Assembly: GCF_030758415.1 (NCBI RefSeq)
Contig: NZ_CP132334.1
Span: 3,174,001 to 3,238,000 of the forward strand
DNA: 64,000 nucleotides
Direction of reading: 5' to 3'
From: Parvularcula sp. IMCC14364
GTDB lineage: Bacteria > Pseudomonadota > Alphaproteobacteria > Caulobacterales > Parvularculaceae
Within the stretch, counting starts at the first letter, position 1; each line of letters begins with the position of its first letter. Shown here in pieces: positions 10,874-13,218 of this stretch. Below the pieces are notes generated by a model that saw only the letters and a list, made by a program, of their open reading frames with translations, did not search any database and was not told the DNA's origin. A program made the translations under genes and the position numbers.

Positions 10874-11473
10874 TCAGAAACACTTATTCAGCATGGCCTC
10901 TACAGCCAGCGCTCGATGGGAGATGGTTTTCTTTTCATCGGCGGGTATTTCCGCAAATGTCTGGGTTCTGCCAAGCGGCATGAACATCGGATCATAGCCG
11001 AAGCCGCCCTCTCCGCGCGGCGGCCAGATCAGCTTGCCGGCGCATTCCCCGCGCACCACTTCTGTATGGCCATCCGGCCAGGCCAGCGTCAGGACACATA
11101 TAAAGGCAGCAGAGCGGTCTTCATTGCCAGCCGCATGCAACCCGTCTTCCACTCTTTGCATGGCAGCCAGAAAATCTTTTTCTGGTCCGGCCCATCTGGC
11201 GGAATATATGCCAGGATCGCCATTTAGGGCAGTGACAGCGAGGCCGGAATCATCAGCCAGAGCAGGTAATTCACTGGCCTGTGCAGCGGCGAGCGCTTTC
11301 AGGGCGGAATTGGCTTCAAAGGTGTCCCCCGTTTCCTCTGGTTCTGGCAGATTCAGGTCGCCGGCAGAAAGAACGGTGACACCCATCGGGGCTAAAAGAC
11401 CGGAAAATTCGGCCAGTTTGCCCTTGTTGTGGGTCGCGAGGACCAGTTTTTTGTCAAAAAATTTCCTAGTCAT
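10874..11473 (-). CDS. rdgB: XTP/dITP pyrophosphatase
   Basis: This 199-residue house-cleaning NTPase of the Ham1/RdgB family removes dITP, dXTP and ITP from the nucleotide pool. It shows ATHNKGKLAEF at the N-terminus, ALADDSGLAV, the catalytic/binding segment GEGGFGYDPMFMP and the terminal SHRALAVEAM. It precedes hemW by about 97 bp on the same strand, a common pairing. Its 5' side faces the operator array of the small-protein cassette, so regulators bound there could also affect rdgB. Confidence 0.96.
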   Translation of the reverse strand: MTRKFFDKKLVLATHNKGKLAEFSGLLAPMGVTVLSAGDLNLPEPEETGDTFEANSALKALAAAQASELPALADDSGLAVTALNGDPGIYSARWAGPEKDFLAAMQRVEDGLHAAGNEDRSAAFICVLTLAWPDGHTEVVRGECAGKLIWPPRGEGGFGYDPMFMPLGRTQTFAEIPADEKKTISHRALAVEAMLNKCF

Positions 11474-11495: not shown

Positions 11496-11578
11496 TGTTG
11501 AAAAACGACAAAAAAATATCGTTTTTCAATAAAAAGCACTTGCATCGTTTTTCGATATGTCTATATTGATAAACAATA
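11496..11578. promoter_or_regulatory. Four operator-like 15-bp dyads upstream of the small-protein cassette
   Basis: Four imperfect dyads with the plan TATYG-N5-CRATA lie between rdgB and the first small gene. They are TGTTGAAAAACGACA (11496-11510), TATCGTTTTTCAATA (11517-11531), CATCGTTTTTCGATA (11543-11557) and TATTGATAAACAATA (11564-11578). Start-to-start spacings are 21, 26 and 21 bp, so two pairs each lie about two helical turns apart. Sites 1 and 2 together also form a perfect 11-bp inverted repeat (11498-11508 / 11519-11529). Site 3 sits in the spacer of the likely promoter and site 4 overlaps its -10. The natural candidate ligand is the XRE protein encoded at 12753; this is inference. 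Confidence 0.65.
11540..11567 (+). promoter_or_regulatory. Likely sigma-70 promoter of the small-protein cassette
   Basis: TTGCAT (11540-11545), a 16-bp spacer and TATATT (11562-11567) resemble a vegetative promoter. A start near 11575 would give a leader of about 135 nt before the first small gene. That leader contains two small inverted repeats: GGCCG...CGGCC around 11580-11601 and GGGCGG...CCGCCC at 11635-11663. The promoter is embedded in the dyad array. Confidence 0.5.
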
Positions 11579-11708
11579 AGGCCGAACAAAAAACGACGGC
11601 CAGAGAGTACCGAGTAAGACGACCCAAGAAAAAAGGGCGGAAAAGCAAAAAGCCAAACCGCCCGAAGTTAAAAACGATAGTTTGAGAAACAGAAATTGGA
11701 GATTTCAC

Positions 11709-11840
11709 ATGTCTAACAAACAGAACACTAAATTCGCTGGTTTTGGCCAGTTTGTCAATATCACAGCTTCAGTAGCTGTCGTGGCGTTGATCGCCCTCGG
11801 CTATGCAAGCGCGATTTCCGACCTGCCTGTCACCATCTGA
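11709..11840 (+). CDS. 43-residue single-span membrane peptide, copy 1
   Basis: GGAG lies seven bases before the ATG. The peptide has a polar Lys/Gln/Asn N-terminus (MSNKQNTKFAGFGQ), one hydrophobic helix (about residues 15-35) and the tail SAISDLPVTI. A paralogue of identical length lies at 11993-12124 and ends in TAISDLPVTI. Over the last nine sense codons the copies differ at four third positions, all synonymous, and at no amino acid, which argues for a real, constrained protein. The positive N-terminus suggests N-in/C-out insertion, putting the conserved tail in the periplasm. No known family is recognised. Signalling peptide, small membrane regulator or type I toxin-like peptide are all possible. 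Confidence 0.75.
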   Translation: MSNKQNTKFAGFGQFVNITASVAVVALIALGYASAISDLPVTI

Positions 11841-11853
11841 CGCGGGAACGAAC

Positions 11854-11903
11854 AGGGCGGCATTCATACCTTAAACCCAACGCCCTAACGTGGGTGCCGC
11901 CCT
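11854..11903 (+). ncRNA. Structured hairpin element, copy 1 (3' of the first small peptide gene)
   Basis: Arms AGGGCGGCATTCAT (11854-11867) and GTGGGTGCCGCCCT (11890-11903) form 14 pairs including three G-U wobbles, around a 22-nt loop (11868-11889) identical to that of copy 2. Loop bases CGCCCT (11881-11886) repeat the end of the 3' arm and could pair with the 5' AGGGCG instead, giving two mutually exclusive folds. A short T-run (CTTTT) follows, so it may act as a weak terminator or attenuator in the transcript. Confidence 0.65.
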
Positions 11904-11992
11904 GAACTCTTTTCAACTGCCGCAATACGGACCCAACTCCGCATAACAGGCAAAGCATTGAACCCATCATCTGATCTCCAGGAGAGACCGAA

Positions 11993-12124
11993 ATGACGAA
12001 ACAAAAAGTAACCCAAACCGGCCGTAACAGCAACCTGGCCCATATGATTGCCACAGTCCTGATCGTGGTGATGGTTGCAGCAGGCTACATGACAGCGATT
12101 TCTGACCTGCCTGTTACTATTTGA
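11993..12124 (+). CDS. 43-residue single-span membrane peptide, copy 2
   Basis: AGGAGAG lies seven bases before the ATG. The peptide MTKQKVTQTGRNSN... has one hydrophobic helix (about residues 15-33) and ends GYMTAISDLPVTI. It is the paralogue of the gene at 11709, with the same length, topology and tail; the N-terminal halves have diverged. It is followed 15 bp later by the second copy of the hairpin element, so gene plus hairpin form a duplicated unit of about 200-280 bp. Function unknown. Confidence 0.75.
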   Translation: MTKQKVTQTGRNSNLAHMIATVLIVVMVAAGYMTAISDLPVTI

Positions 12125-12139
12125 CAGGCTGGCCAAAAC

Positions 12140-12189
12140 AGGGCGGCATCCATACCTTAAACCCAACGCCCTAACGTGGATGTCGCCCT
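12140..12189 (+). ncRNA. Structured hairpin element, copy 2 (3' of the second small peptide gene)
   Basis: Arms AGGGCGGCATCCAT (12140-12153) and GTGGATGTCGCCCT (12176-12189) form 14 pairs with two wobbles. The 22-nt loop (12154-12175) is identical to copy 1. The stem differences between copies (T-G to T-A, T-G to C-G, G-C to G-U) all keep pairing. AACTTTTT follows directly, then the DUF2975 start 26 bases on. A partial terminator here would make the peptides more abundant than the downstream membrane protein and regulator; this is inference. Confidence 0.65.
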
Positions 12190-12215: not shown

Positions 12216-12749
12216 ATGATTAAGAAAAACAAACTGGCCGGATTTCTGTCAGTTATTTTGCGCATCATCTACATCATCTCTCTCGTGGCGATGGTGGTGT
12301 TGGGTATCTTGTCGGTCGCGACTTTTTTTGCTGCGCCGCTTGAGGGGGTTCTGAACCGTATTCATGGTGTGGATCTGGATCTTAATGATTTTGCGATGTC
12401 CGAATTTGTTGATGTCGCCAAGAGTTTCATTACTGCCGTAATGTTTGTGGTGGTTTCCCGTTGTCTGATGGTCGTTCTGCAAACGATCTCCGACGGAACG
12501 CCGTTTGAGACGGATAACGCTGCCAGGTTCAGCATTATTGCCAAAGTGGTGGTGTATGCCGAGCTGGCCAAGTTCGCGGTGGTGCCGGTGTCCGGTCTGA
12601 TCGCAATGATATTGGGTATTGAGTATGGTGAAGGCGGACAGCTTTCTCTCAATCTGACGAATTTTCTGGGCGCCGGGATCGCACTTGTTCTCGCAGAAGT
12701 GTTCCGTGAAGGAGCGCGCCTGCGTGAAGAGCAGGAGTTAACGGTTTAA
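12216..12749 (+). CDS. DUF2975 membrane protein
   Basis: 177 residues with four predicted helices (about 12-40, 70-90, 110-135 and 145-165), matching DUF2975, an uncharacterised family almost always encoded beside a small XRE regulator of the YozG type. That is exactly the arrangement here: the regulator gene starts four bases after this stop. GAGGG lies seven bases before the ATG. By analogy with other membrane protein/regulator pairs it may be a sensor or immunity-like partner that controls the regulator, but that is inference. Confidence 0.8.
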   Translation: MIKKNKLAGFLSVILRIIYIISLVAMVVLGILSVATFFAAPLEGVLNRIHGVDLDLNDFAMSEFVDVAKSFITAVMFVVVSRCLMVVLQTISDGTPFETDNAARFSIIAKVVVYAELAKFAVVPVSGLIAMILGIEYGEGGQLSLNLTNFLGAGIALVLAEVFREGARLREEQELTV

Positions 12750-12752
12750 CGC

Positions 12753-12965
12753 ATGGCAATCAGTGTAAAACTCGACAGGATTTTGCTGGAACGCGGCATG
12801 TCACTGACTGAATTGTCAGAGCGGGTCGGTGTGACCATCGCCAATCTGTCCATTCTGAAAACCGGCAAAGCCAAAGCGATCCGATTTTCCACGCTGGAAG
12901 CGATCTGCAAGGAGCTGGAATGTCAGCCGGGCGATATTTTGAGCTTTGACGAAGAGGGAAATTGA
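12753..12965 (+). CDS. Small XRE-family (YozG-like) transcriptional regulator
   Basis: A 70-residue protein that is essentially one helix-turn-helix domain: LDRILLERGMSLTELSERVGVTIANLSILKTGKAKAIRFSTLEAICKELECQPGDIL. There is no ligand or dimerisation domain. It is closely spaced after DUF2975, as in many genomes. It is the best candidate to bind the four dyads at 11496-11578 and control its own operon. A second, related regulator of the same size occurs at 23448. Confidence 0.88.
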   Translation: MAISVKLDRILLERGMSLTELSERVGVTIANLSILKTGKAKAIRFSTLEAICKELECQPGDILSFDEEGN

Positions 12966-12996: not shown

Positions 12997-13218
12997 ATGC
13001 AGGCGCGCAAGGATACCATGTTGTCACAAACCAACCATGTTGCCTCAAGGGGGTTCAGCCTGTTTGTGCGGAACGCCGTCATGCTCTCGGCTATTGTCAC
13101 CGTTCTTGCGCTTGTCGTGCTCAATTTCACGCTCCCCGCCGCCCCTCATTCGGATACAGTCATCTATTCAACGGCAGGCGTTGACAGATCACAACCCGTC
13201 GGCCGGGATAGCCGATAG
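12997..13218 (+). CDS. 73-residue single-span membrane protein
   Basis: The ATG at 12997 follows AGGAGAGAAATC; a longer in-frame start at 12946 would overlap the XRE gene and lacks a ribosome site. The protein has a Lys/Arg-containing N-terminus, one strong hydrophobic segment (NAVMLSAIVTVLALVVLNF, about residues 24-42) and a polar C-terminus likely facing the periplasm. No family is recognised. Its place directly behind the DUF2975/XRE pair suggests the same operon. Confidence 0.65.
   Translation: MQARKDTMLSQTNHVASRGFSLFVRNAVMLSAIVTVLALVVLNFTLPAAPHSDTVIYSTAGVDRSQPVGRDSR

Follow-up and report, generated by a model that had tools for sequence, protein, structure and literature searches.

The window analysed here, a 64,000-nucleotide stretch of the Parvularcula sp. 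IMCC14364 genome (NZ_CP132334.1, 3,174,001 bp–3,238,000 bp), encodes two tandem copies of a small peptide gene which we have designated pepA. Judged by its homologues and by its pattern of substitution, pepA is a real, previously unannotated micropeptide family. As this family is found in a fixed operon together with a membrane protein and a putative repressor that is highly conserved across the order, the locus probably represents a small, built-in module for control of the cell envelope, as opposed to a toxin. The novelty of pepA, and of a second peptide designated pepB, holds within the databases and open-access papers searched. The features of the locus are given in Table 1.

Table 1. Features of the pepA locus, with positions numbered from the first nucleotide of the window
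Feature	Position	Strand	Description	Evidence
rdgB (non-canonical purine NTP pyrophosphatase, presumed)	10874..11473	-	divergent neighbour, fixed landmark	tblastn
Operator-like palindrome 1, TATCGTTTTTCAATA	11517..11531	.	TATYG-N5-CRATA	position and spacing kept in family
Operator-like palindrome 2, CATCGTTTTTCGATA	11543..11557	.	overlaps -35 box	
Operator-like palindrome 3, TATTGATAAACAATA	11564..11578	.	overlaps -10 box	
Probable promoter	11540..11567	+	-35 TTGCAT (11540), 16-bp spacer, -10 TATATT (11562)	sequence reading, kept in relatives
5′ leader hairpin GGGCGG...CCGCCC	11635..11663	+	upstream of pepA ribosome-binding site	family-wide stem comparison
pepA1	11709..11840	+	43-aa peptide, predicted single-helix membrane peptide	family homologues, dN/dS, hydrophobic segment 18-36
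Hairpin after pepA1	11853..11904	+	15-bp stem, 22-nt C-rich loop	folding and relatives' stem comparison
pepA2	11993..12124	+	tandem pepA copy, 43 aa	homologue profile search
Hairpin after pepA2	12140..12189	+	same 22-nt loop	folding and relatives' stem comparison
DUF2975 membrane protein, conserved tail VLAEVFREGARLREEQELTV	12216..12749	+		Pfam, structure model, segment conservation
HTH_26 (Cro/C1-type, XRE) regulator	12753..12965	+	proposed operon repressor	Pfam, identity, order-wide presence

Both pepA ORFs were confirmed to be of equal length, as an earlier sequence-only reading of the window had claimed, and each is preceded by a Shine-Dalgarno-like sequence. The two copies showed 40% identity over the whole ORF and both end in AISDLPVTI. 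The codons of this tail (35–43) differ at four synonymous positions (TCC/TCT, GTC/GTT, ACC/ACT and ATC/ATT) and at no non-synonymous position, a count which agrees with that reading. The predicted hydrophobic segment had a mean hydropathy of 2.1–2.3, and the N-terminal MTK..VTQ pattern of pepA2 is common to copies 2 and 3 of genome G003. The peptide had been said to belong to no known family; it indeed gave no meaningful score to any Pfam, NCBIfam, PHROGs or PADLOC family.

A profile built from the peptides of the genus found relatives in the family, and the family pepA profile (31 rows; cut-off E ≤ 0.001) matched 47/62 genomes of the Parvularculaceae, in which NCBI places the genus Aquisalinus; the window genome was counted within this genus. 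The sequence-only reading had called for such a search and had named an absence of homologues as evidence against the peptide, so this objection failed. At the same cut-off there was no match in 286 other genomes of the order. The best match in every family locus opened lay between a divergent rdgB and a DUF2975–HTH_26 gene pair, unless the contig ended first, and conserved linkage of this kind had been put forward as support for a new system. Chance does not account for the duplication, the hairpin or the reading frame, because homologues are found at this position throughout the genus and the family. Weak secondary matches (G000:C1:691696, G004:C8, G001:C19, G030:C1:651601 and G077:C73/C114) had no DUF2975 or HTH gene alongside and were dropped as chance.

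The dN/dS of window copy 1 was 0.20 against its G001 orthologue and 0.11 against that of G004, and these two orthologues are separated by five synonymous changes and no non-synonymous change. The median for pepA in the sister genus was 0.22 (284 pairs). These values, far below one, indicate that pepA is under purifying selection, as had been proposed; a dN/dS near one, the other ground on which the sequence-only reading would have been refuted here, was thus not observed. Most family members, G002 and G005 among them, carry a single pepA, against two copies in the window and a tandem run of three in G003, and on these counts the duplication is local to Aquisalinus. In the metagenome-assembled G004, one contig stops just past a first hairpin, and the start of another falls within a hairpin that precedes DUF2975 and differs from the first. 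These contig ends suggest that G004 has a second pepA unit that was not assembled, and G001 possibly has one too. DNA searches of phage and plasmid records returned nothing for the locus and a scan of viral contigs with the hairpin-loop sequence gave no match, which speaks against a mobile element.

The divergent neighbour of the operon, which we take to be rdgB from recognition of its sequence, adjoins nearly every relative's operon in a tblastn search with the window protein. The linked DUF2975/XRE pair that had been read from the window was verified by Pfam: the DUF2975 gene product matched PF11188 (E = 1.3e-11, 45 bits, gathering threshold 27) and the HTH_26 gene product matched PF13443 (E = 7.7e-22, 77.8 bits, gathering threshold 22). 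The median identity within the family was 90% for HTH_26, 54% for rdgB and 33% for DUF2975. The HTH_26 protein was present in 321/348 genomes of the order (E ≤ 1e-14) and, at the different cut-off of E ≤ 1e-20, in 28/385 genomes of a class-wide sample. Downstream of HTH_26 in the window there is an ORF with one hydrophobic segment (12997-13218).

The AlphaFold model of DUF2975 (mean pLDDT 90) has four long helices, and a Foldseek comparison of it with the PDB revealed no significant fold match (best E 0.45). Conservation was 0.83 and 0.89 in the presumed cytoplasmic segments, 86-106 and 158-177, and 0.35 and 0.26 in the presumed outside loops; this orientation would follow from an N-terminus on the inside, placing the conserved segments in the cytoplasm and the variable ones outward. 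The conserved face of DUF2975, together with a regulator of median 90% identity, suggests that this face may meet the repressor and that the variable face may meet the peptides or the envelope. No function for DUF2975/HTH_26 pairs was found in the open-access papers searched, where DUF2975 was named once in each of two papers on other subjects. Tandem DUF2975 gene pairs were seen in some family members (L088, L089, L058, L067 and L072). The window ORF downstream of HTH_26 has a counterpart in G003 (L024:3565-4386), where a similar stretch, LVYTTLDYDR against VIYSTAGVDR, is followed by an ankyrin-like repeat region.

The three operator-like palindromes in the rdgB–pepA gap of the window are spaced 26 and 21 bp. 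As the consensus promoter scan did not list the TTGCAT/TATATT promoter before pepA1, we infer this promoter as probable. With at most one mismatch allowed, an operator-like site was found at 63/66 loci, compared with 0–1 in the flanking kilobases, and one was also found at 40/40 further loci. The AT-spaced operator pattern occurs at three places in the window genome and its reversed control pattern occurs once. Two of the three places are palindromes 1 and 3, and the third lies 54 bp upstream of a gene for a 149-amino acid Gly-rich hydrophobic membrane protein (G000:C1:2117565-2118065; L185:1502-2004). The site is kept before the orthologues of this gene in eight genomes, namely all six of Aquisalinus, G012 and G022. 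Across 24 genomes of the order the pattern was rare, being present at 0–11 places, compared with 0–1 for the control. The linkage and conservation of the TATYG-N5-CRATA sites point to HTH_26 as the protein that would bind them.

In other families the ORFs nearest to the pattern encoded Imm_superinfect, DUF2807 GIN-domain, OEP, GPP34 and sub-threshold PspB-like products, and others without a family; several of these nearest ORFs were family-less or housekeeping-looking. In family f5, the operator-like site has among its neighbours a lipoprotein-like gene, in which SLVGSD/SIAGGD-like units are repeated, and an Imm_superinfect gene (L241, L244, L246; L242, L243, L245, L247).

The rdgB–DUF2975–HTH layout persists in other families of the order. 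Upstream of DUF2975, membrane peptides of 37–41 amino acids were encoded at 18/20 f5 loci and at 7/12 f3 loci opened, with one of the f3 ORFs counted being read with a longer N-terminus. No peptide was found before DUF2975 in most f2 loci (most genera) or in 3/3 f4 loci opened; the operator, DUF2975 and HTH were present there, and therefore the peptide is dispensable to the core. Alignment of the 38-amino acid peptides with pepA by hhalign gave a probability of 70%. Their place, their size, a shared G...A register and this profile match moderately support the suggestion that the 37–41-amino acid peptides are homologous to pepA.

A second unannotated peptide of 47–55 amino acids, pepB, follows pepA in sister genera. 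It was seen at L088:2408-2557, L038, L041 and most loci of genera g2, g6 and g7. The stop codon of pepA and the start codon of pepB overlap as TAATG in 27/27 g2 genomes examined. PepB has a signal-like hydrophobic N-terminus and, at the C-terminus, CxxxxC and four to five mostly hydrophobic residues; among 24 sequences the only invariant positions were M1 and the two cysteines. The median dN/dS of pepB in g2 was 0.28 (ungapped part). A search of Aquisalinus did not find pepB, and we attribute to chance four weak matches (E 5e-4 to 8e-4) that fell outside the family.

We consider it fairly probable that the locus is a chromosomal, vertically inherited and autorepressed envelope operon of leader, pepA, DUF2975 and HTH_26, in which DUF2975 controls the repressor and pepA is a membrane partner. 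The operon would run from the 5′ leader through pepA (in the window two copies, each then followed by a hairpin) to DUF2975 and HTH_26. HTH_26 probably binds the promoter-overlapping palindromes and so represses its own operon and, in the window genome, one other gene, that of the 149-amino acid membrane protein. DUF2975, as a predicted four-helix inner-membrane protein, is probably the sensor of some state of the membrane or envelope and, through its conserved tail, probably controls the repressor. PepA, predicted to be a single-helix membrane protein, would be either an effector on the membrane or a modulator of DUF2975. The sequences themselves show the peptide family, its synteny and selection, and the conservation of the operator-like sites and RNA stems; repression, sensing by DUF2975, membrane insertion, the role of the hairpins and the envelope-stress theme are inferred. 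Counting against this reading are the families in which no peptide was found, the absence of a solved fold resembling DUF2975, the moderate support for homology of the 38-amino acid peptides to pepA, and the choice of nearest ORFs as the genes beside sites in other families. A more tentative reading, to which we give distinctly less weight, is that of a peptide-sensing module inherited vertically throughout the order, with PepA and PepB as ligands or subunits of DUF2975 that would so be controlling the core HTH_26 repressor as a minimal kinase-free membrane circuit.

Somewhat less likely again, in our judgement, is an Sdp-like locus in which PepA and/or PepB would be exported or membrane-active, DUF2975 would serve as immunity protein or receptor, and peptide-bound DUF2975 would lift repression by HTH_26. 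The SdpR repressor and SdpI anti-toxin of Bacillus subtilis have been described (PMC6818787), and SdpC–SdpI–SdpR brings a small membrane-active peptide, an integral membrane partner and an autorepressor together in one locus; here autorepression would follow from the operator-like sites over the likely promoter. The linked DUF2975/XRE pair had suggested a peptide/immunity/regulator system to the sequence-only reading, and in this form the idea is kept as a rival. The gene order, in which one or two genes for small hydrophobic peptides accompany those of a probable autorepressor and a multi-pass membrane protein, agrees with such a system, as do the signal-like N-terminus of pepB with its two invariant cysteines near a hydrophobic C-terminus and the Imm_superinfect-like genes behind the operator in another family. 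So does the distribution of change: variation falls on the peptides and on those loops of DUF2975 presumed to lie outside, conservation on its presumed cytoplasmic side and on the HTH protein. Unlike patchy bacteriocin loci, however, this locus is inherited in a fixed place across the order with a near-universal regulator; no SdpA/SdpB-like or export genes were seen beside it, some families had no peptide found, and Pfam and NCBIfam scans of the locus gave no match to an Sdp family.

PSP/Lia envelope-stress networks have among their parts PspB and the Toastrack domain, to which DUF2807 belongs (PMC11237479), an account in which DUF2975 is not mentioned. Any likeness of the present locus to these networks would lie in two genes that follow sites in a single genome from another family, a clear DUF2807 gene and a PspB-like gene below threshold. 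Such genes were not among the two probable targets in the window genome, the regulator here is HTH_26 instead, and no PspA, PspF or LiaRS gene was found at the locus, the genes of which are rdgB, the peptides, DUF2975 and HTH_26. As an analogy, the probably autorepressed operon may be set beside peptide/membrane-partner/repressor circuits and envelope-stress modules; membership in the type I toxin-antitoxin or Sdp systems was not supported by the tests run.

The hairpins that follow the pepA genes start 12 nt (pepA1) and 15 nt (pepA2) past the stop codons and have an identical loop, in keeping with the claim of the sequence-only reading that each lies within 16 bp of its gene. Their folding z-scores were −4.7 and −4.8 relative to shuffles, and the 22-nt loop was absent elsewhere in the 3.42-Mb single-contig genome with up to three mismatches allowed. 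In the 3′ stem, compared over eight distinct copies, 93% of cells were paired versus 34–44% in slid controls, and two pairs were changed on both sides with pairing kept in relatives; as the sequences are few and related, this covariation is supportive and not strong. The leader hairpin was common to 23 family sequences, with 87.6% of cells paired and changes to both partners in four pairs. The pepA hairpins were not called by the terminator scan, as their loops exceed its limit, and an Rfam search of the region revealed only sub-threshold chance matches. Within the proposed operon the hairpins probably determine where the RNA ends or how stable it is, with the result that more pepA than regulator would be made. 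A different inverted repeat, GGGGGG...CCCCCC, was read by eye between pepA and DUF2975 in genus g5 (L046, L081), and another was read in the same way in this gap of G012.

Very unlikely is a reading in which the hairpin with its conserved loop is itself the functional element, acting as attenuator or regulatory RNA, while the peptide is a minor leader product. The loop is strongly conserved within the genus, the stem covaries and the leader hairpin is conserved family-wide, but sightings of the hairpin with the 22-nt loop were confined to Aquisalinus; the peptide, by contrast, occurs across the family and is selected at the protein level.

Least probable of all, and not supported, is a type I toxin-antitoxin system, the comparison with type I toxins having been drawn by the sequence-only reading; PepA would then be a membrane toxin that an antisense RNA keeps silent, with the hairpins as RNA parts. 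Tandem small hydrophobic peptides with structured RNA do recall such systems, but the locus is single-copy, fixed beside rdgB family-wide and order-wide and strongly linked to DUF2975 and a probable protein repressor, a gene for an antisense RNA was not seen, the scan revealed no promoter-like site on the minus strand over the peptides, no Rfam family scored above threshold, and the phage and plasmid records searched did not contain it. DinQ is a toxic single transmembrane peptide with antisense RNAs (PMC3567139). PepA is like DinQ-like toxins in its size and its single, here predicted, hydrophobic helix, and differs in having a probable protein repressor instead of antisense RNA and in being conserved family-wide in one place.

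The single-copy form of pepA across the family, the existence of pepB, the operators, a probable further member of the regulon and the distinction between genus-specific and family-wide hairpins all go beyond the sequence-only reading, because they lie outside the window or need relatives to be seen. To the known DUF2975/HTH_26 pairs, the micropeptides, the probable operator and the predicted regulon are additions made here. Two undescribed micropeptide families can now be placed in a genomic setting, with a probable regulator and operator and a predicted regulon of few members; the DUF2975/HTH_26 pairs gain a testable role. As the regulator is present in over 90% of the sampled genomes of the order, the model is testable in genetically tractable members of it. 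If the peptide-sensing reading is true, a minimal, kinase-free membrane signalling circuit would have kept its position throughout the order.
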